A stretch of DNA of 64,000 bases from Quercus robur (taxonomy: Eukaryota > Streptophyta > Magnoliopsida > Fagales > Fagaceae), in NCBI RefSeq assembly GCF_932294415.1, contig NC_065535.1:14341282-14405281 (forward strand). The letters run 5' to 3'. This document shows positions 5,447 to 63,893 of this stretch, one piece after another. A program made the translations under genes and the position numbers. Position 1 is the stretch's first letter. Each line of letters starts with the position of its first letter. Below the pieces are notes generated by a model. The model saw only the letters and a list, made by a program, of their open reading frames with translations, was not told where the DNA came from and searched no databases.

Positions 5447-7057
5447 TTAGCTAAATACAATTTGACAAGATCTAGAATGCCTGGGAAACAACAATAATTC
5501 CTTGAGAACACAAAGCTTCTCCTCTGAATTTAAATTATAAGAAGAGATTTTCATTGTCTTTAAGACCTTTGCCCTTTTTAGGAAATGTTTAACAAGTTTC
5601 AGCTCATTCTTTAACCCTTCAAATCCTTCATAATGAAGAGTTGTAAGGCATGATGACAGACATTTGCGAACAACTTGTTGCAGTGGCTCCTCATACAATA
5701 TCATGTCACAAGTGAAACTCTCTCCCTTTTCACAACTAAAAAAGTTCCTTTCTTCCTAACAACAAAAGACAGTAGTTACTTGAAACAATTCAGGAATGAA
5801 AAAAATAAAAGATAAAAAAGACATTATATCATCATTTGAACTTACATACCTTTTCAACAACAAGTACTGCAAGATTAGGAGTCACTTGAAGCAAGTGCGG
5901 TAGCACATGCAACATACAAGGACCCTTAACCTTTAAGAAAGACAAATTATGAAACACAGGAGGATCAAATTCAGAAGCATTGCAGAGGAACTGCACCACA
6001 ACACAACAATCACAAGTCACAAACAACAATATTACTGCTTGTCCGAGATTGAAGCTCTCAACCATTTAATAATAAAACATGAAAAAACTTGTGCTTGTTT
6101 TACCTCAGTGGTATTTGCTGACAAATGGAGGGACTTAATGTCACAGAGTTCTCCGATGAAGTCCCATGCCCTACTTCCATAGTGTTCATAATAATCAATT
6201 TTAGTTAAATCAACATCAATATCAATGACCACTTCGACCAAGTTAGACAGATCTTCCAACAATATGCTATCCAAATGACCCCCAAAATTAAGGTACTCCA
6301 AAGCTGGGGCCTTTATTTCAAGTTTGTAAGGCAACTCATCAAATTTCATATATAAATGTAATCTTTTCAGCGTAGGCGAAATGAATTTACAATGCCAATC
6401 CGCGTACCAACAATGTACTTTAACAGACAAATCTTGTAGCACCGGACATAAAGTGGGTAGAGTAAAAAGATAGTCGCAGCTATTGAAGTTAAATTCAAGA
6501 TGCAGAATCTTCAGACTCGGGAACACAATGGATGAAGATGGAGGAGTATCATACTCAAAATTGCCACTCAATTTCAAAGCTATTAGTGTTTTACAGTTAA
6601 AGAGGCTACAGGGCAAGTAGAAAGATCGGTTAGAGTTAGGATCGATGTGAAGGTCAATATCTTCCACGCCACGAGCAATCGTAGCGCGGACCCATGTATC
6701 CATGTGTACTGGGTCATAAACTCCATGATCCCAATGGAGACGAAATTTTTGTACATGACTCGCACCGCGAAGAGCCCAGACTCTGGATACTATATGCGCA
6801 AAATTAAAATTGTACCGTTTATGACTTTGCACTTCAGCTGAGGACGACGTCGTTGTGAGTTCGTAGTAGTCGAAGTCAAGCTTTGGCACAAGAGTCCAGA
6901 GTGTCTTCCACCTGCTCGACAAAATGCTCGTGACAACAGCCTCTTTGGTTGTGAGAAACGAAAGGATACGGCAGAGGAGAGACTTCGGTAAATTACTGAT
7001 CCTGTCCGCTTCTTCTGGTTTCTGGCGTTTTGAGGTTGATTCAGCCGAGCAAACCAT
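5447..7057 (-). CDS. F-box/LRR/FBD domain protein
   Basis: Plant FBD-type F-box proteins are presumed substrate receptors of SCF ubiquitin ligases, binding SKP1 through the F-box. Three minus-strand exons join in phase 0: 7057-6104 (318 codons), 5990-5850 (47) and 5755-5447 (102 plus TAA), giving about 467 aa. The F-box is at residues about 20-60 (ADRISNLPKSLLCRILSFL, then SSRWKTLW). A leucine-rich middle follows (FNCKTLIALKLSG, FPSLKILHLEF), and the FBD domain is at the end (TTLHYEGFEGLKNELKLVKH). Splice sites are canonical: GAG|GTAAAA, GTGCAG|TTC, AAG|GTATGT, TTAG|GAA. An in-frame ATG at 7183 would add 42 residues, but 7057 better fits where the family usually starts. The substrate is unknown. 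The family expands rapidly in plants, so orthology cannot be assigned. Confidence 0.9.
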
Positions 7058-7199
7058 TCGGCCTTTGTTGAGGCAATAAGCTTTGGAAGGAGGAGTGGTG
7101 GGTTCGGACTCTATCAATTGAAACCGTCGGAAGTGGGAAAGTCTTTTTTTTTCTAAGAAACCACCGGAAGTAGGAAAGTACATTAGTTTAAACTACCTA

Positions 7200-26977: not shown

Positions 26978-29900
26978 ATGGCGGTATGTTAAATGCAGCT
27001 AAACTCATTTGGTGTATGATCTGTTGTTTTAATTACTTTTTTTTTTTTAATATTGTTTTTATGATTTTTCTATGTGTTTTGCTTGCTTGGAAATCTTGCT
27101 AGGTCGAGAGGATTCTTAAAGATGAAGCTAGTGAAGAAAAGGGGGAGCGTGCCAGAATGGTGAGTCTGTGTATGCATTTGTGAAATCAATGAACCAAAAT
27201 TGTAGAAGTTAGTTGCGTAAATTTGGATATTCATAGTTTCATACGACTGAGCTTCTTCATAATTTTGAAGTTTTAATATTCTGAACCGTGCGAATCTGTG
27301 TTATTAGATATTTAATGTGAACAAAATGTGTAAATTGATTTCTGTGTTGTATATAGGCATCGTTTATTGGAGCAATGGCGATTGCTGACTTGGTGAAAAC
27401 TACCTTGGGGCCAAAGGGAATGGTAAAAATTTCTTCAGACTTAAGTGTGTTGTTAAATGAGACTTGTTAAATGAGACGATGCTGTTCTTTTAGGAATGCA
27501 GCCTCTGGGAGGAACTTAAGTTACAGTGTGCTTGTTGCTTTATGTTTTTCAGGATAAAATTTTGCAATCAACGGGTAGGGGACGTGAAGTCACTGTTACA
27601 AATGATGGTGCCACCATTTTGAAGTCCCTTCATATTGACAACCCAGCTGCTAAAGTTCTTGTTGGTATCCTTGTCTTTTGCTTAATGACATGAACTACAA
27701 TTGTCATGGATTAAGAATTATCTTTGATTACGTTTTACTAGCTAGAGGCGAGTCCAAAGGGATCTTCTTTAGAAAGGTTCCCTGCATTATTGAAAAATTT
27801 GGGGGGTGGAGGTTTGTATGAGCATCTGTGTGATGGCATTTATACTATTGTAATCTACGATGGTAACATTAAATATAGTCATATAACAACTATGAGTTTA
27901 TTGAATAAATGTTGTTCATTGGTCATCCTTAATTTAAGCATCAGACATTTCTAAAGTTCAAGATGATGAGGTTGGTGATGGGACAACTTCTGTTGTTGTT
28001 TTGGCTGGGGAACTCTTGAGGGAGGCAGAAAAGCTTGTTGCAGCAAAGATACACCCGATGACGATAATAGCAGGTCTGGGTATATTTGAATTATATGCGA
28101 TCTTTCCAATCTTTTGCTTGTTTAGTGAAGTCATATTTGTATACTAGGCATGTTTTTAATTTTAGTTAACTAAAAATTGAATATTGCATTTTACTTTCTA
28201 TTTTTGGCTGAATAATATTGCATTTTACTTTATTCTCTTCATGTGTTTAACAATAAAAATGGAGCTATATTTTTTCAGTCATGTCATTGTTTCTTGAAAT
28301 CTTTAAGGACATGCTTCCTTCGTCCTAGGTCATGTCATTTCCTTGAATTTAGGTCAGCTAATGATCTGTGCAATGATGACTGAAACTATCCCGAAAGAAG
28401 GATGGCATTTGCTTCCATGATGTATTCACTTTCTTTTTTCATACTAATATTCTATTAATTTGGCATATTTACTTATATAAAAAAAAAATTCTATTTATTT
28501 GGCATATTTGAGGGCTTTAGAATTGCTTGTGCAGTCACGTTTCTTGACATAACTCTTGCCTCCTTACCTTACTCTAGTGAAGCAAAGCAAGAGTTATATG
28601 TTGCATACTCTAGTGAAGCATGCCTTCATTATGTAGTCAGAATTGCTCTCAAGCTATATTTTTAGAAGAAAAAAAGTTTATATTTGGAGAATATTTTAAT
28701 AGTTGCTTCTTTTGGCTGTCAGCTGTAAATGAAATGCTGCCAAGCTGATGGATTGGTCTCTCTCTCTCTCTCAATAAGAATTGTTCTTTTGTCTGAACTT
28801 CTCAATTATGTGGTCAATTTTCATTGTGTTTCTATATAGAACTCCTTGTCCCACCCAGCTTGCAGTTTGACCTGAAAGTTTTGTAAAGTTCTTCCAGTTG
28901 ATTTTACTGCTTATAAAAAAATGAAAAAAGTAGTTTTCCATTTGTTTCTTACCATGTTAAATATGTGAAATACGAGAGTTTCTGATGACGTATTTTATTT
29001 AGGTTATCGAATGGCAGCGGAGTGTGCACGCAATGCTTTGTTGCAGAAAGTTGTGGATAATAAAGAGGATCCAGGTACTGATTATTGTTGTATATTGACT
29101 ATATTCACTTTTTATATCCTTCTTCCCCCTTCAACGGTTTCTTTATTGCGGGATCTTCTGTACTACTCCCCCTTTTTCCTTGAATCAACATTGTTGTTTC
29201 TTGAGAACTTTTTGATACAATCTGTTCTTGACAATGATGATTACTTATAGACTAAACTAGATGTATAAGAATGGCACTTTATACACTTGTACATGGATGG
29301 GAATTTCTAATTTGTGTGACCATGCCTTTGCACCATGCCTTGCATAATTACATTCTTAATGCTTGTCATTACTATATTTTGCAGAGAAATTCAAGTCAGA
29401 CTTGATGAAGATTGCAATGACTACTTTGAGTTCAAAGATTCTTTCACAGGATAAGGAGCATTTTGCAAAATTAGCTGTGGATGCTGTTATGAGGCTAAAG
29501 GTGAATTGTATGGTTCATTATATAGGGAAAAGGCTCTGATTTTGTCATGCAATCCATCCTTAATTTGAGTGTTAAGGCATTTATCCATGCCAATTTGTTG
29601 GATTAAGGCTTAATTGAGTTGAGTTGATTTTTCAGTTTTTAGCCACTTTGTCTCCTTGTTGGCTTTCAAATGGTGGTTTTTAGCTTTAAATATGTATTAT
29701 ATTATATTTTCTGATAATGCTTTTGGAAATGACAGGGCAGCACAAACTTAGAGTCTATCCAAATTATTAAGAAGCCTGGAGGGTCTCTAAAGGATTCGTT
29801 TTTGGATGAAGGGTGAGGCAATATAAACTTGCAAGTTTCCATTATGTAACTATGGTCTGTGCTTGAAATAAGTAGGCATCCTTTGCTTTTGCTAGACTAG

Positions 29901-35689: not shown

Positions 35690-38600
35690 AGGAAGAGCTG
35701 ATAGAGTTTCTCAGGAGGGACATTGATGTGCTCGTGTGAAGTCCTTACGAAGCTCTTGGGGTGGATCTGAACTTCATTTGCCATCATCTGAATGTCAATC
35801 CATCCATTATTCCTAGAAAACAACCACCTTGGCGTTCATTTAAGGAGTATTCTGATGCCGTCAAGGATGAGGTGATCAAATTTAAGCAGGCTGGAGCTAT
35901 TAAAGAGATTTTTTTACCCCGAGTGGCTAGCCAATACTGTAGTGGTGAAGAAGAAAATGGAAAGTGGCGGGTTTGTGTGGACTTCACAGATTTGAATAAG
36001 GCCTGTCTAAAAGACCCTTTCCCCATGCTTCAGATTGATTAGCTAATGAACACAACTATAGGCCATCATCGGATGAACTTTTTGGATGCCTTTTAGTGAT
36101 ACCACCAAATACCACTGGTTTTGAGTGATCAGGAAAAGACAGCTTTTGTCACTCCTACTGGAAATTACCACTACAAGGTAATGCCCTTTGGGTTGAAGAA
36201 TGCAGGGTCTATCTATTAGAGGATGATGACCAGGATGTTTGAGCCGTAATTAGGCAATAATATTGAAGTTTATATTGATGATATGGTGATGAAGAGTAAG
36301 GTGGTGTGGTGTCCAGGCATGTGGGAGACCTCAGTTATATTTTTGGAATATTGAGGAAACACAAGCTACGCCTTAATGCTTTTAAGTGTTCTTTTGGGGT
36401 TGGTTCAGGGAAATTCCTCGGGTACATGGTCACTCATCGCGAAATTGAAGTCAATCCTGACCAGATTAAAGTAATTAATAGTTTGCAGCCACCTCGGAAT
36501 CCCAAAGAGGTCCAAAGGTTGACAGAGATGATTGCTGCTCTAAACCGATTCATTTCTTGATCAGCAGATAGGTGTAGACCTTTCTTCCGATTGTTGAACA
36601 AGTGGAAGAGATTCGAATGGAATGAGGAATGTGCCCTGGCCTTCCAGCAATTGAAGGAATACCTTTCTCGGCCACCTATTATGTCCAAACCCGAGGTAGA
36701 TGTTTTGTTTGCTTACATCGCTGTGGCTCCCAATGTGGTGAGCTTGGTGTTGGTACGGGTTGATAGTGGTGTGCAAAGGCTGGTTTATTATGTGAGTAAG
36801 TCGTTGCATGAGGTCGAGGTGCGTTACCTACCGTTGGAAAAGGCCATTTTGGCAGTGGTACATACTACACGTAAGCTCTCCCACTATTTCTAATCTTACA
36901 CAATAGTTGTTTCAACTCAACTTCCACTTAAATCACTTTTTTGGAGTGCTGACTACACTGGGAGGGTTACTAAGTGGGGTACGATCCTAGGGGTTTTTGA
37001 TATCAAGTACATGCCTCGCATATCTGTCAAGGGTCAAATTCTCGTAGATTTGGTGGTCGAGTTTGCTGAATCCCCATTAGAAGAGAGAATAGAGAAGCAG
37101 GACATGGATGGAAAATTAGTTGGCATGATCTCTTTACAAGAACCTTTATCCTGGAGGGTATATGTTGATGGTGTAGCGAATCACAGAGGATTTGGAGTGG
37201 GGCTAGTTCTGATATCTCCTAAGAGGATCATAATTGAGAAATCCTTGAGGTTGGGCTTCTCGGCCACAAACAATGAAACTGAGTATGAGGCTCTGTTGGT
37301 AGGGATGACCATAGTCTAGAGAATGGGGGGAAAGACAGTGGAGATATTCTCAGATTCAAGGCTGGTTGTGGGCCAGGTTTAGGGAAAGTTGGAGGCCAGG
37401 GATATGAGAATGCAAGAATACTTAAATTAGGTCAGGCACTTACAATCAGGGTTTGAATCTTTCAGTTTACTGTACATCTTTAGAAGCGGAAACACCCATG
37501 CTGATTCTCTGGCCACTCTTGTAACCTCCTCGGTTTAGAGTTTGCCTCGGGTTATCCTTATTGAAAACTTATGTAAGCTTACAGAGATGAAGAAGGAGGT
37601 GGTCTATATTCATCAAATTAGAGTGGGGCCTAGCTGGATGGATTCTATTGTGCTATTCCGTAAGGAGGATATCTTGCTCGAGGGGAAGTTTGAGGCTGAC
37701 AAGGTACGAAGAAAGGCTCATCGGTTTTGGCTATTCGATGACCAAAAGTTATACACGCGCTCTTTTTCGGGACCATATTTACTATGCATACACCTCGAGG
37801 CATCAGAGCTACTTCTGGAGGAGTTACATGAAGAGATTTGTGGAAGCCACACAGGTTGCAGATCCTTGTCTCATAAAGCCCTTACACAGGGATATTGGTG
37901 GTCGAACATGCAGATTGAAGCACAAGAATATGTGAAGAAGTGTGACCAGTGCCAAAGATTTGCCCCAAACATTCATCAATCAGGGAGAGTCCTTAATCCT
38001 CTGTCTAACCCTTAGCCATTTGCTCAATGGGGCTTAGATATTGTTGGACCTTTCCCTAAGGCAGCAAGGAATAAGAGATGGTTGTTGGTTGGCATGGATT
38101 ACTTCACCAAATTTGTTGAAGTTGAACCATTGACAAATATCAGGGATGTGGATGCCAAGAGATTTGTTTGGAAAAATATTATCACTCAATTTAGGATCCC
38201 ACACACCCTTATCTTTGATAATGTTCTTCAGTTTAATAGCAAAGCCTTTAAGAGGTACTGTTGCGACCTGGGAATTACAAATAGGTATTCCACTCTTGTC
38301 TATCCACAGGGGAATGGATAGGTCGAGGCTGTCAATAAGGTCATTGTGAGTGGACTTAAGAAGAGGTTGGATAATGCGAAAGGAAAATTGGGGGAAGAGC
38401 TGTCACACGTCCTATGGACATATTGGACCACACCTCATAGATCAATAGGGGAGACACCATTTTCAATGACTTATGGAGTTGAGGCTGTTATTCCTCTAGA
38501 GACTGGAATCCCAACACTGAGAATGAGTTCTTTCACTTCGAGCAACAATGATGGGCTGTTAGGGAATAACTTAGACTTAATTGAAGAGCAAAGAGAAAAT

Positions 38601-38957
38601 GTCATAGTCCAATTGGTGTATTATCAACATAAACTTAAGCAAGGGTATGATGCCAATGTAAAGCTAAGGCTATTAGCACTTGGAGATCTGGTATTAAGAA
38701 AGGTATTGGGTATGGCAAAGAACCTAGCGTGGAGAAAGTTAGGGCCCAACTGTGAAGGGCCATATCGCATCACCTCGGTGGCTGGAATATGTGCATATTA
38801 TCTTGAAGTTCTAGATGAAAATGTTGTACCACGCCCTTGGAATGTAAACAACCTGAGAATGTATTATTATTTCTTTGCCATATTTTGGTTTATTACATTA
38901 TGCGTTATGCATCCTACTATTTATTTGAATATCAAACAGAACCTTGGTCATGTCTAG
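35690..38957 (+). pseudogene. Retrotransposon pol remnant: RT, two RNase H domains, integrase
   Basis: Reverse transcriptase spans about 35760-36560 with the YIDD active-site motif kept at 36271-36282. A Ty3-type RNase H lies at about 36591-36893 and a second RNase H at about 37130-37330 (VYVDGVANHRGFGVGLVL, NNETEYEALLVG). The integrase has an HHCC zinc domain (about 37830-37970, ending CDQCQ) and a core (38070-38560) whose second Asp lies in FDN and whose Glu is in VEAVNK. Stops interrupt the frame at 36040, 36094, 36097, 36217, 36247, 37317, 38013 and 38319, with at least one frameshift near 36300. Confidence 0.9.
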
Positions 38958-45090: not shown

Positions 45091-48000
45091 TTAGAGAGGT
45101 CGTGTGTGTCGACCCTTTGCCCTACCACAAAGCAGTGCATTCTTTGGAATTGGGAATTCATCTCTAATTGAAGTTGATGGAGTATAAACTCGCAAATAGA
45201 ATTGTTGTCCAAGATATTGTCGTGCCCAAAACTCAGATCTCAAGTTCCACATTCCAACATTGTCAAGTGCCAAATATATAGCAGTCCATGACTTGGGATA
45301 CACCTGCACTCACCAAAGCATGAAACATTAGATTTATAAACTTTCAAGCTTTCTTCAGGTTAGGCAAAGCAAAAATGGCATTGAACCTAACCTGAGTGGT
45401 GACACGTGAAACTGCGTCTCGAAGATTGTACTGATTTCTACTAGCCGTAGTCCACAGCCCTCCATCCATACTACATTACCAAAGTTTTTCAATATTAATC
45501 AAAGTAAGAGAAACCAATCCAAGAAAGAAGCAACAAATGATTGCAAGTGAATCTCATGAAGCAAATACACACGCCAATTATATATGTAAATAGTGAGCTT
45601 ACCCAACCACCCAAAAAGAGTAGCCATCAAGGTGCCAACTCTGAATTATATCCTCAGTGTTTTCAAACACAATCTCAATGAATGCTCTGTAGTCAGCACC
45701 CATTACTGCTGTGTCAAGGTAGATTCCACCACCAGTAGGGTTGCTAGATATACTTCCAACTCGGAAAACTCCTTGAATTTGGAAGTAATCGGCAATCTTT
45801 AGGGGAGTGTCTGCGGCGACATATGATACACTGTTAACTGCATATCTTTGCTTGCCGTCGACAAGACCAGCAGAATTTTGTAGCCTGATGGTTTTGGTTG
45901 TGTTAATGAGACCATAGTGATACGAGCCTTGTGGGTTTGGCCTTGGTCCACTTGCTGTAAGATTAGTCCTGGAATGGAAGTGAAAATTAGGCTCATATAC
46001 TTAAGAAAACAAACATCTAGCGTGTGACAAGGTGACAATTTTATAATCAATTTGCAAATTTTCTAGCCAACAAGGGCTATTTCTCTTTCTCCAAGTATCA
46101 ATATTTAGACATCCATCACTTGAGTGAGGAGCTCTTTTGTTTCAGGAGTTATATATATATGTGTGTGTGTGTGTCATAACTTTTGCTCAGATGATTCCAC
46201 ACCCAATCCTCTAGAAGCCCTGTGGATCGACAATGTGGTGAATGAAACTTGAAACTCCTAGGTTTACAATATGTCCTTCAAGTTTATTCAACCTACCATC
46301 GGTGTGCCCCGAAGGAAAATTGTTTCAAAAGTTAATACTCCTGGAAGCAAAGAGACAAGACAATATTGAGGGGTGTTTTCGATAAGATGAAGTACTTTGC
46401 TGATTTGTTAAATTATCTTAGAAAAAAATATAGTTCTGAAAAGTCGTATACATAAGTCAATAAATTAAAAAGTACACCTAAAAAAAAAAAGGTTTTTTAA
46501 AAAAGTTATTGGCAAATGGACACCAGGGCCCAGGGGGCATAGATGGTTGGCTGAATGTCCAAAAGACCATACGCCTGAAACAGTAACTTTAATTGTGGGC
46601 CTCTGGCTACACTAACCTTCTGAGCAAGGGCCCAAGGAAGGAATATAGACCAGTGTTATTCCAAAACACAAAAGCAGGCTTGGAAAAAATGGCTTGACAA
46701 TTTTTCCAACCGACAACAGAGAAATGACAATTGACAAAAGAGCATACCTAATAGAGCGGGCCTGGTTCAGAGACCAATCAACTTGGATGGTAGGTCCACC
46801 AGGAGGTGGGCCTGAGACTGGGCCAGCAGAATTACTGTAATGAAGAACTCCAGTAGTGGTGAGGATTGGAGTGGTGAAACGACTGGAAACCACAATGTAG
46901 TAGTCTTGTCCGGGCTGATCCATCGTTACGAGGACGGAGTAAGACTGCCCAACATGAACATCAAGGGAGGAGTAAGAAGTCTGAAGGGTGTGAGTTCCTT
47001 CTACTTCTGCCAATGTCAACCTGTGGCCTTGAATGCGGAAGTTGAGTGAATGTTGTAACCCAACATTTGATATTCTAAACCTGTAAGTTTTTCCTGTGAT
47101 ACATAATAGCAGGATATATGGTTAGGCATGAATGGTAATCAAAACCAAAGTAATCATTAGTCACAACAAGCTCATCAAAGCAGGCTAAGCAGCAAAGTTA
47201 TTGGAGTATTTGATGCTAATATTGATGAACAGAAAAATGTCGGTTTAAAGAAATTTTGGGTTGAGTTAGGATTTGAGAATTTAAAATTAAGGGACTTGAA
47301 GAATAATTACTAGTATAAATTTGTGGGCCTTAGGGAGTTTGCTCAAACAAAAATATCGGAGATATTATAGATTTGAAATGACACCTTATTTTTGGTTTAT
47401 TAATATCATTTCATAAATTACATCAATAGAAAAGACATGTCATTTTATATCTTTATTCAAGTACATTCAAATTAAAGATTGATATCTAAATTATTCTCTC
47501 TAAATTTCTTAGTCCAAATGAGTAGTAGGTGATTTTTTCGCAAGATTTTTAGAGGGAGGCGGTTGATTTAGGAATCAGGACATTGTAAATGCAAAAATAT
47601 CCATATCAAGTGCATGCCATAAAGTAATCCTAATTATAACAAAAATTGAATTGCGCCATCGCACTCGGATATTTATCTTACATTTTTCCACACATGCAAG
47701 TCCAAATTTCGGTGGGGTAAACGAAAACTTCTATTGTTTTTTTGCGTGGCAGACATGAAGAGTGGGGTAGAGTTTTTTTTATTGACAACAATAAAATGTG
47801 AAACGCAAGTAATGACGTACAAAGGCAAAACAAGCAAAATACAAAATATGTTACAAATTGGCTAAAAGCTTTACCATCCAACCAAAATTTATGAAATAGA
47901 CGTAAACAAAGAAACAATCAAGCCAGAAATTTCGTATAACTCGTATATATACGACAAAATCAAAATCATTTGGTAGAGACTTAGATTGAGGAAGAGTACA

Positions 48001-51000
48001 CACCTTGTTCAACTGTATAAGCAGCACCACCGGGCCCGCGACCATTGATGAGGATTCCGTCAGGAAAATGCAGCTTTTTACCACGATCTAGAAGAGCTTT
48101 CAAGTCCTGTGCACAATGAAATAAACACGTGTAAAATCAATAAAGAATGTACAAGTACGAATAAAGATTGTGCAAATCAAGAGTAACGCAACCGACACTA
48201 GCTTATTAAATTTAGGTTGTGACAACCATTAAGTTCCATCAACTTCATTAACCAACACTTACTGGTCCATTAATATGTATATGTTGGATATGTACATGAA
48301 CAACCTAGCTACATGGTCCACGAGACCTGTATTTGAACATTCCAAAGATACCATAGTGTTTTGGAAACTGGGATTCAAGTGTTTTGGATTTATTGATGTT
48401 ATAGAGACAGCAAGTGTTACTCACAATGTATTATGTATAATCCGATAAAAGCCGTGTCACCATGTATGCTAGACATCTATAGAATTTGTGGTCCGAAATG
48501 TATAGAATTTGTGGTCCAAGGCAAACCATCAAGTGCATGTACAAAAAAATAATAGGATCACAAAAATTTACACATAATTATGAGTGATAGGAAAAAAAAT
48601 GTTGAACTGAACAAGGGACAATTGATTTGTAAATTGTTCGGACGGCAACAAAAGAAAATAAATAGTATACAGTGTGATTCTCAAAAGAAAAAAAAAAAAT
48701 ACAGTGATTTATAATTTTATGAATTTAAAATTCATTAAATTTAAGATTGATTCATCCCTGAAACAATCTTTGACATTTTTAGTGAAAAAAATAGTGGGTC
48801 AATTCATTTGGGACTTGTTCAATATCAGGCTATGAGCTGGTTTAACAACCATAAAGACAAAAGGAAACTAGCTGGCCAAAAAGGAAGTAGTGACGTCAAA
48901 AAGCAAAATATTTTTGTTCACAGCGATGGACCCACCGGTTTACCGACGCAAACACAAGGTCACAATCCAAAGGATCCCCGCCAAGACCACTTTAATACCT
49001 CAAAATTTAAAATAAATAAGTATTGTCGTTTCAAGTATTAATTCATATGCTTTTAATTCATTTGTAAAAAATTTTGTAACTCAATTAGTTGACATGTATT
49101 GATATTTTGGTTTCAAATTTCTTATTCAACTATGGAGTTATCAAAATAGTTCGATGCAACAAATGAGGAAAAATGATTACCGTGTGATTAGCCTTGTACC
49201 AATCTCCAATAAGAACGGTGTAATCACCTGCGGGGTCTGGAAATGGGACAGGAATTCTTGGCCTACTAAGAATCCTGATTCCTCCAAAACCACCAGCAGC
49301 CTTGTGAAATGCAAGAGAAGGGAAATAGTAAAAGCTTCCAATCTGATCCTTCACTTGGAGAATGTAGGTGAAATTCTGCCCCGGGGGAATTGGGCATGTT
49401 GTTCCATTTACACCATCCTCAAACGAATTCCTCCTATTTTGAATTCCATTCCTATATTTTTCACACCCCAAAAAAAAAAAAAATTACAGTTATAATAAGA
49501 TACTACTATAAATTTTGTATTGCAAGCAATGTTATAGTTCATTTTGTCAATAATATTCCTACAATGATCATTGCAATTGTGATAATGTAAAAACACATAC
49601 AACACACGGAGTGTGGTTTGATGGTACACATGGTATTATCCATTGTCATCATGTGCCATGAGATTGATGAGTCCACACCAGAGACCTCCTTTTTTTAATT
49701 CAGAAAAAAAAAAAAAAACACATACATGATTTAATTTTACTCCAACCACATTATAGAGTTAGAAATACAAATGACTCTATTCTATCTTATCACAATTTAC
49801 AGTTGTTAATCCTTGTATTTCATACTCTGTGGTTATCACATTATAACAATTGTAATGCAGATGGATTAGATGTGGGCTAGCTCTTATCCTTAACAATATC
49901 GAGCCTCCTTTTTCCATAAAGGACGTAATTTAATATTGATGGAGAGGTTAATGAACGTAGTTTTCAACTTTTTGCACATGTCTAAGTTCAATGAGCACTA
50001 AATTTTCCTGGTGCGAGGTAATGAATGGGACCACTTAGCGTCCTAATCAGTAAGTTAGTTGCTTGCAGACTTTGAAGTCACCTAATCAAGCAAATGTAAA
50101 GGGCAAAGCCAGAGAGATATGTTCCCATATAATCAAATGATTAATCAAGAATAAAAGAGAAAATATTTTGTTAAAATATGCCCTAAATACATTTGTTAGT
50201 GAACAATTTAAGAAAATTTGTATGAAAAAAAAAAAAAGGTGATTTTTTAGACAGTTTTTTCTATTTTTTATAAAAATGATATTAAAATTTTTTAATAATA
50301 ATTTTTTAATAAATATCTTAAACGCACCTTTAACTAGAACAGAGAGAGAAGGTATCGTATTTGTTCTCGTTGTTGGTTTGTTGCGTAACATTTACGGAGA
50401 TTAACCCTATCCCCATTCCCTGCTGGGTTTATCCTATGCAAGTCCTCTTGTGGAAGACAGCTATAAATGGACCACTGAAGTCTGAAACTTCGTTTTCCAA
50501 GTGAAGTCGGTAAACAAATATTACACTAATTGATTCCAATTTCCAAAAAATAAAAACAAAATCTTTCCGATAAATCTCTCATCCATTGCTGTCCCTTTCT
50601 GTTTATAGAAAGCTCATTACTAAGCTAGTAAAACAATTAATTCTCAACAAAAAAAAAGGCTAATAGAACAATTGATAATGACTCTGAGAAAATGATTAAT
50701 AGGGATCATATTTATGACCTCCAAAACAGACTCTTCTCCACTCATCACGGGTAGTTTATACCGCGACATAGCAAACCATAATGTTTTTTTTTTTTGGAAC
50801 ATATAATAAACTATAGGATTAATAAAGAGAGAACATATAAAAATTACCATGAGAATCCGACCCAAGTATCCGGATCTAGATTAAGATCAATGTCCAGCAC
50901 AGAATGTGAGAAGAAATATTGAAAAAAACAAGGTAATGTGAAAAAAGTTAACCAATTAAGGCTTTTAGACATTCTGTTAATCCTTTTTAAAAAAAAAAGA

Positions 51001-61679: not shown

Positions 61680-63893
61680 TTAGAAGTCCAAAGTTCCACA
61701 TTGCTTGCTCTCAATACTCTTTGCTTCATTAGTTTCTTTTGTTCCCTTCTTACGATCATTATTAGGGCCTCGACTCCGCCCAATGCCCAGCTTTGGCAAA
61801 CCCCGATTTAGTCCCTCAAGCAGAACACAAGCTTTACACCATTTCTGCACAATAACACAAGGATGATGAATACTCAGATGCCCTAATGGGTAGCACATGC
61901 ATGTTCACATGAACGGTCATTCCTAAAGCGCATACATGCAGGGGAAAGAGATTGGGGGGGGGGGGGGGGGGGTGGGGGGTGGGAAGCTGATGGAAATGGC
62001 AATGGCAATGTTGGATAATGATAACAAATTGATTCCCTGACCCATCCAAAGGAAGTGCTGGTTCACAGAAGAAAATTACAAGCAAATGTAGGAATTGGTA
62101 TCATGAAAAAAAAAAGGCCATAACTGAGCAAATGTGTTTGATATTTTCTTACTGCACATGAGGCTGCCTCACACAAGATAGCTAAACAAAACTAAAGCAT
62201 TCCATCAATGTTGTAATTGCAGAAACTCTCCCCACTCTAGGCCATAATAAACATGTTTGTCTAATAGGCAGATAACTACTTTTATAAATGAGCTATAATT
62301 TGCAAATCATGTTTATAAAATCTTTCTGTAATTGGGAAATAAAGTGAAGCTTGAATTTTGCGTTAGACAACAAAAGCACGGGTTATATACTACTGAGTTT
62401 TGGTCAAACATATCAGGTCATGGAATATGCATATCAATGCTGCAAATAGAATCTAAGTGATAAATAAATTCCATGAGATATAAGTATCCAAAATTTTCTG
62501 GTTAGATGGAAATAGAAGCAAAACTTACCTGGCTTGAAATGTAGCCACAGCGTTCACAAGTCCCTTGTTCTGGCATTTTTGTAAAAGTAGAAATCCTGAA
62601 ATCCTCCCCTGATTGGATGATGTCAAGTATGGCCCTAGGTCTGCATCAGTAACATGAGAGATAATATGTCATACTAATAAAACAACTAAAATGCCAACCA
62701 TTGGGGAAAGTCTCAACTAAATAAAAACCTGATTCTTTCCAAATCCTTTATGAACTCACGAGCAAAACCACGATATGCATTTGGAGAGTAAATGCCTGCA
62801 GTTTCCATAAAAAGAACTCAGTAATTAGTTCAATTGAAAACCCAATTAACAGAAACAAAGGTAGGACACAAAAAGGACCAGCTCGTAATTGATTGACTTT
62901 ACTGCAGACTATTATACATTGGCAAGAAAAGTTGCGAACTTGCAAATAAATACTGCAACTTGTTAAGCTGCAAAAAACTATTCAGAGTTTGATAGAAACA
63001 TGCTAAGTAGGTCCTATAAACTGCACAAGGAAACTAAAATGAGTCATTGAAAAGAGCATTCATGAGAAGTGGAATAATAAACATACATTCGGTGGAGAAA
63101 TAGTCCAGCCTCTTGAAATATGCATACGTGTATATCTCGTTAAGGATTTGTAAATAATACCAACAAATATTTATAGGATAACACATTACAAGACTTTCAA
63201 AACCATTGAGAATTTCAATAACAAGGATATATAACAATCTCCTTTTCATATGTGTACTTGAAAGGTTTGCATCTTGGAATTGGTCCATCTTCACCAGTGA
63301 CTATTGAAGTGCATCTACTCAATCTACAAAGCAAAAGCATCAATGAGTTTATACACAAAACTTTATAAGAAACAAGATGGAAGAGTGGACAAATGTATTC
63401 ACCTAGCAATATCACCTCGTAGAATATTCAAAAGAACTGTTTCTGCAATATCATCTGCATTATGTCCGGTAGCGACCTTGTCTACTTTCAACAATGCAGC
63501 ACCTCGATCAAGGGCCTTAGAAATAAAGCAATCAATCAATTGAATCAAATCCCACTTAATTTTCATAACTGATAAAACATTAACCCTTGTGGTTAAAGAC
63601 TATGTAATTATACAACAGAAATTGTGCTTGATATATCAAATCATTGTGTGCATGCCCAGCGCTAATCCACAAAGCCAAGTGTCTGCCACCAACAGCATAA
63701 ATGGCAGGGCTAGTCGAAAATACATGATGAACATATGTGTGCCTATAATTTTAGAGGAGGTCATGTCCTATACCTGGCGTCGGAAAACACCACAAAATGT
63801 GCAATTATTCTTTAAACCTATCATCTTCACTATCTCGTCCATCGTCCATCCATACAGATCCTTGTATGAGACAATTTTAAGTGGCAGTCCATA
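61680..63893 (-). CDS. CTU1: Cytoplasmic tRNA 2-thiolation protein 1, C-terminal part (7 exons, starts off right edge)
   Basis: CTU1 (NCS6; ROL5 in Arabidopsis) with CTU2 thiolates the wobble uridine of tRNAs for Lys, Glu and Gln. Minus-strand exons: 63893-63774, 63515-63403, 63323-63231, 63127-63087, 62795-62729, 62640-62529 and 61844-61680 (TAA). They give 236 residues in one frame. Visible motifs are [54 protein letters not shown] and the C-terminal zinc cysteines [12 protein letters not shown] and [18 protein letters not shown]. The N-terminal ATP-binding PP-loop (SGGKDS-type) would lie beyond the right edge. The intron 63230-63128 looks like a U12-type AT-AC intron; all the others are GT-AG. 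Intron 62528-61845 contains a 19-G run. Confidence 0.95.
63128..63230 (-). other. Putative U12-type AT-AC intron of CTU1
   Basis: On the minus strand the intron starts ATATCCTTGT, against the U12 donor consensus ATATCCTTT. It has ATCCTTAAC as branch site, 10-15 bases before the end, and ends in AC. Splicing there gives EIVMYAYF, the conserved CTU1 sequence. The competing GT-AG reading (ATT|GTTATA to CGAG|ATATAC) stays in frame but gives EIIYTYAYF, one residue longer and less like the family. Confidence 0.88.

Follow-up and report, generated by a model that had tools for sequence, protein, structure and literature searches.

In the minor spliceosome, U11 and then U6atac recognize the 5' splice site of a U12-type intron, for which the consensus is RTATCCTT (the form also used in the earlier note on this DNA), and U12 recognizes the branch site. 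Published statements given below are those of excerpts of the papers named. For plants, the excerpted text of PMC5932401 gives a U12 branch consensus of TTCCTTRAY, describes the pyrimidine tract as lacking, and lists TA content and an A as the upstream purine as influences on how efficiently splicing proceeds; the AT-AC intron of the CBP20 gene that it treats was found in ten species that range from liverworts and mosses to dicots. More generally, PMC3584512 puts the optimum distance between branch site and 3' splice site at 11-13 nt and counts it as a hallmark of U12-type introns that they have no distinct pyrimidine tract. As for the share of introns with AT-AC ends, PMC7367187 gives 26% of the U12 introns of A. 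thaliana and 23% of those of soybean, and PMC5932401 quotes 4.8% as the AT-AC figure.

Here we describe an intron from a 64-kb stretch of plant DNA (the window, meaning the whole of the stretch that was analyzed). From its splicing signals and the fit of the spliced protein we are highly confident that it represents a genuine U12-type AT-AC intron in a plant CTU1 gene.

Results

The CTU1 gene at the end of the window

At its right-hand end the window contains the 3' part of a CTU1/NcsA-type tRNA thiolase gene, encoded on the minus strand. Seven exons, all taken in the spliced frame, join to give 236 residues and a stop: exon a (63774-63893, reading YGLPLKIV...CGVFRRQ), exon b (63403-63515), exon c (63231-63323, whose final AT begins a split Met codon), exon d (63087-63127, whose first G completes that codon), exon e (62729-62795), exon f (62529-62640) and the last exon (61680-61844), which ends in LDF and the stop codon. 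Exons upstream of exon a presumably lie beyond the window.

When the first 182 of the 236 residues were compared with solved structures, they matched 6scy over residues 1-180 (E 5.8e-25) and TtuA, 5gha, over residues 2-179 (E 1.1e-16). These residues also scored just above the cut-off of Pfam PF01171 (30.1 bits against 27). The NCBIfam models, which serve prokaryotes and were here confronted with a partial protein, gave 106.6 bits for the best of them, NcsA (cut-off 500), and 54.4 for TIGR00269 (cut-off 62.75). Homology places this gene among the CTU1/NcsA-type tRNA thiolases. It is presumably the orthologue of ROL5.

That the window holds only a part of the gene would be compatible with a gene copy in decay, for which intact splice sites would have lost their importance. 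Against this, the seven exons join without frame breaks all the way to the stop and the protein matches solved thiolases over the 182 residues tested, so that we regard decay as having a close to negligible chance of being correct.

U12-type splicing signals of the 103-nt intron

The intron that separates exons c and d occupies 63230-63128 of the minus strand and is 103 nt long. Read in that direction it starts with ATATCCTTG and ends with TCCTTAACGAGATATACAC, its final stretch being TACAAATCCTTAACGAGATATACAC. It is a phase 2 intron, interrupting the Met codon between its second and third bases: the exon sequence before it reads GAG ATT GTT AT and that after it G TAT GCA TAT TTC, for a spliced peptide of EIVMYAYF.

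Scored as consensus matches, the signals within this intron are those of the U12 class. The 5' splice site ATATCCTT (63223-63230, minus strand) agrees with RTATCCTT at eight of eight positions, and the branch site TCCTTAAC (63139-63146, minus strand) agrees equally completely with TCCTTRAC. Compared with the plant branch consensus in the excerpt of PMC5932401, TCCTTAAC matches eight of nine positions, differing only at the first base, and it carries an A at the upstream purine position. The branch A itself is at 63140 (minus strand), 12 nt from the end of the intron, a spacing that counts in favor of a U12-type intron since PMC3584512 gives 11-13 nt as optimal. By eye there is no pyrimidine tract ahead of the 3' splice site, the exon being preceded by AACGAGATATACAC, and the intron terminates in AC (63128-63129, minus strand). 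Thus all five of the U12 features tested were found (donor, branch site, 12-nt spacing, lack of a pyrimidine tract, and AT-AC ends supported by coding sequence). The intron as a whole is 74% A+T. The earlier note had claimed a 103-base intron with a U12 donor, a branch site near the acceptor and a terminal AC, lying in the tRNA-thiolation gene CTU1; the first part is borne out by the two complete consensus matches and the 12-nt spacing, with the minus strand as the strand concerned, and the second by the homology to solved thiolases together with PF01171.

How often such signals would arise by chance was estimated in several ways. We defined a strict pair as RTATCCTT followed by a TCCTTRAC whose branch A precedes an AC or AG by 8-16 nt. 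In 200 first-order Markov sequences, strict pairs separated by less than 300 nt are expected 0.045 times per 64 kb, both strands included; when the separation is extended to less than 3 kb the chance expectation rises to 0.535 per window-sized sequence. For both motifs to occur at the fixed position of this intron, the first-order model gives a joint probability of about 1.5e-8, but this overstates the surprise because the site was pre-selected, and the window-wide value of 0.045 is the fairer one. Among 20,000 dinucleotide shuffles of the CTU1 intron none kept both motifs, while five kept the donor and six the branch site.

Choice of the splice junction

We scored alternative junctions by their fit to a protein profile of relatives. 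These came from 54 loci in genome contigs, all prokaryotic (viral contigs yielded none), from which 21 with short matches (L034-L054) were dropped to leave 33 aligned relatives. The relatives had been searched for with the proposed spliced peptide, and one of the six search patterns crosses the junction; that pattern, YEKEIVMY, occurs exactly in none of the 33. With identities of 28-43% in their best segments, the 33 relatives are not close enough to settle the choice of one residue. Across the junction, all 33 are gap-free.

The candidates comprised 5,133 in-frame donor-acceptor pairs with any dinucleotides at their ends and an intron of at least 20 nt, which reduced to 2,008 distinct open peptides; both cut points of each candidate lay at least a few codons inside the scored segment. 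Scores were computed with the profile of the 33 relatives after removal of the plant row. Since the first alignment had been built with the plant row in place, the scoring was repeated with a fresh alignment that never held it. The AT-AC splice giving EIVMYAYF ranked first of the 2,008 with 172.3 bits, and this peptide comes from a single pair of cut points. With the fresh alignment its score was 173.6 bits, again at rank 1. No GC-AG splice was present among the open alternatives.

The earlier note had named one GT-AG junction as refuting its proposal. Taken as an ordinary U2-type intron it occupies 63235-63136 (ATT/GTTATA to AACGAG/ATATAC, minus strand), and it would yield EIIYTYAYF and make the U12 motifs a coincidence. 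This reading has some appeal, as it is open and in frame, adds just one residue and is of the usual type, GT-AG being used by all five of the other CTU1 introns in the window, none of which starts with RTATCCTT. Nevertheless, it is the best GT-AG splice only at rank 18 of 2,008, with 165.0 bits (166.3 with the fresh alignment, at the same rank), which in both alignments is 7.3 bits below the top score. In 100 profiles built from half-subsamples (16 of the 33 relatives each) it fell behind every time, by a mean of 7.0 and a minimum of 6.0 bits, so the alternative named in the earlier note loses. Its additional residue is placed exactly where the 33 relatives have no gap, its donor GTTATATA is a poor match to the U2 consensus, the AG at 63136 has no pyrimidine tract ahead of it, and a perfect and correctly spaced set of U12 motifs is left unexplained. 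On the strength of the protein fit, the missing pyrimidine tract and the unaccounted U12 motifs we rejected this junction, and consider it very unlikely to be the one used.

A second competitor is much closer in protein score. If both cuts of the AT-AC intron are moved two bases upstream (63232-63130), the product is EIVTYAYF, which ranked second with 171.8 bits, 0.5 bits below the best; with the fresh alignment it was again second with 173.2 bits, a difference of 0.4. In the half-subsamples EIVTYAYF came first in 15 of 100 and EIVMYAYF in the remaining 85. The shifted reading ends at a further AC (63130-63131, minus strand), out of frame with the donor at 63230, and its branch A lies 10 nt from that AC. 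However, ATATATCC, the donor that it would use, is no match to RTATCCTT, and a 10-nt spacing falls short of the 11-13 nt given as optimal in PMC3584512. We therefore judge this shifted junction to be extremely unlikely, even more so than the GT-AG one. The claim in the earlier note that only the AT-AC splice at 63230-63128 restores EIVMYAYF is, in view of the 0.5-bit difference, slightly too strong, although that splice does rank first. Taken together, the protein fit prefers AT-AC to GT-AG, and the exact AT-AC pair is chosen only by the U12 donor motif and the branch distance.

Window-wide scan for U12 motifs

A looser scan of the whole window, pairing RTATCC[TA][TA] donors with TCCTTRAY branch sites, detected three donor-branch pairs less than 500 nt apart where 0.655 were expected by chance; at least three such pairs also turned up in 5 of 200 random sequences, so the scan is not very selective. 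One of the three pairs is the CTU1 intron. Another, at 27665-27944 on the plus strand, has the donor GTATCCTT, the branch site TCCTTAAT 12 nt from the 3' splice site, and the end CATCAG. It sits exactly between two coding stretches of CCT2, its removal restores the reading, and the peptide across the splice is gap-free against the two solved TCP-1 beta chains that were examined. This is a probable second U12-type intron, of the GT-AG subtype, in the gene for the CCT2 (TCP-1 beta) chaperonin. The third pair (29114-29576) crosses a coding stretch that runs from 29360 onward and was taken as a chance occurrence. Two of the three candidates defined by motif are accordingly introns with coding support.

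As regards the remaining content of the window, no Rfam family, those of snRNA genes included, reached its gathering score within the 64 kb. By eye, open frames at 36561-38957 (plus strand) resemble an LTR retroelement polyprotein with reverse transcriptase/RNase H and integrase-like parts, those at 45599-49483 (minus strand) resemble a multicopper-oxidase-like protein of the SKU5 type, and an open frame at 6032-7192 (minus strand) resembles an F-box/LRR protein. Judged by its genes, namely the spliced CTU1, CCT2 and the retroelement-like stretches, the window is eukaryotic and most probably of flowering-plant origin.

Discussion

The interpretation put forward in the earlier note, that of a U12-type AT-AC intron in CTU1, is supported by these sequence comparisons. 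What we observed here is the set of motifs with its spacing, and that the spliced protein fits best; from this we infer that the splice sites would be used as follows. In the minor spliceosome ATATCCTT would be read by U11 and then by U6atac, TCCTTAAC would be recognized as the branch site by U12, and the joining of AT to G would rebuild the Met codon within a conserved part of the thiolase, E-(I/V)-x-x-Y.

If the intron is retained, the reading continues as EIVIYPCY and terminates after five codons at a TGA (63217-63215, minus strand), with loss of the C-terminal part of CTU1, including its cysteine pairs. Because retention leads to a stop so early, efficient expression of CTU1 should need the minor spliceosome, and we can fairly infer that CTU1 output, and hence wobble-uridine thiolation, would be dependent on minor splicing. 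If the intron is spliced as predicted, tRNA wobble thiolation joins the processes that defects of minor splicing could touch in plants. As to how severe the effect might be, PMC10863982 reports, in its excerpted text, Arabidopsis rol5 knock-outs that are hyper-susceptible to a pathogen; since such knock-outs exist, loss of CTU1 is tolerated in Arabidopsis and the effect is likely to be graded and not lethal.

The AT-AC ends may perhaps add a further requirement. According to the excerpted text of PMC11039992, AT-AC splicing in Arabidopsis depends on DROL1, which makes the link between CTU1 and minor splicing directly testable, and splicing of CTU1, its intron ends being AT-AC, may also rely on DROL1. 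One could go on to imagine thiolation as a controlled output of an AT-AC-specific branch of the minor spliceosome (with factors of the DROL1/CENATAC type), such that the level of thiolation and the decoding of codons would track the capacity for minor splicing; we think this unlikely.

A practical consequence of splicing as predicted concerns annotation, as gene finders restricted to GT-AG introns would misplace the CTU1 junction by one residue. A search of full-text literature, directed at the texts of papers as distinct from the gene lists in their supplements, gave no report of a U12-type intron in CTU1/ROL5/ATPBD3 among the matches listed, which is weak evidence. Two matches were set aside on the wording of their excerpts: in one that combined 'CtU1' with the minor spliceosome the string stands for a cycle term in PCR instead of the gene, and one that combined thiolation with U12-type concerns oligonucleotide backbones. 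AT-AC U12 introns are a standard and well-known class, and the CTU1 gene very probably contains one of these rare introns, a sound but fairly ordinary result on gene structure.

Set beside known systems, both the enzyme and the intron have counterparts. The CTU1/ROL5 tRNA 2-thiolation enzyme of Arabidopsis (AT2G44270; excerpt of PMC10863982) belongs to the same family by homology to NcsA/TtuA, and the plant U12 introns collected in the IAOD/intronIC catalogue (excerpt of PMC7367187) are of the same class as the intron described here. The CBP20 intron of plants, in the excerpted text of PMC5932401, lies in a different gene and its splicing has been tested experimentally. The two have in common their AT-AC ends, a U12 branch consensus with an A at the upstream purine position and an AT-rich composition, and the CBP20 intron, at 76-284 nt, is in some species also short.
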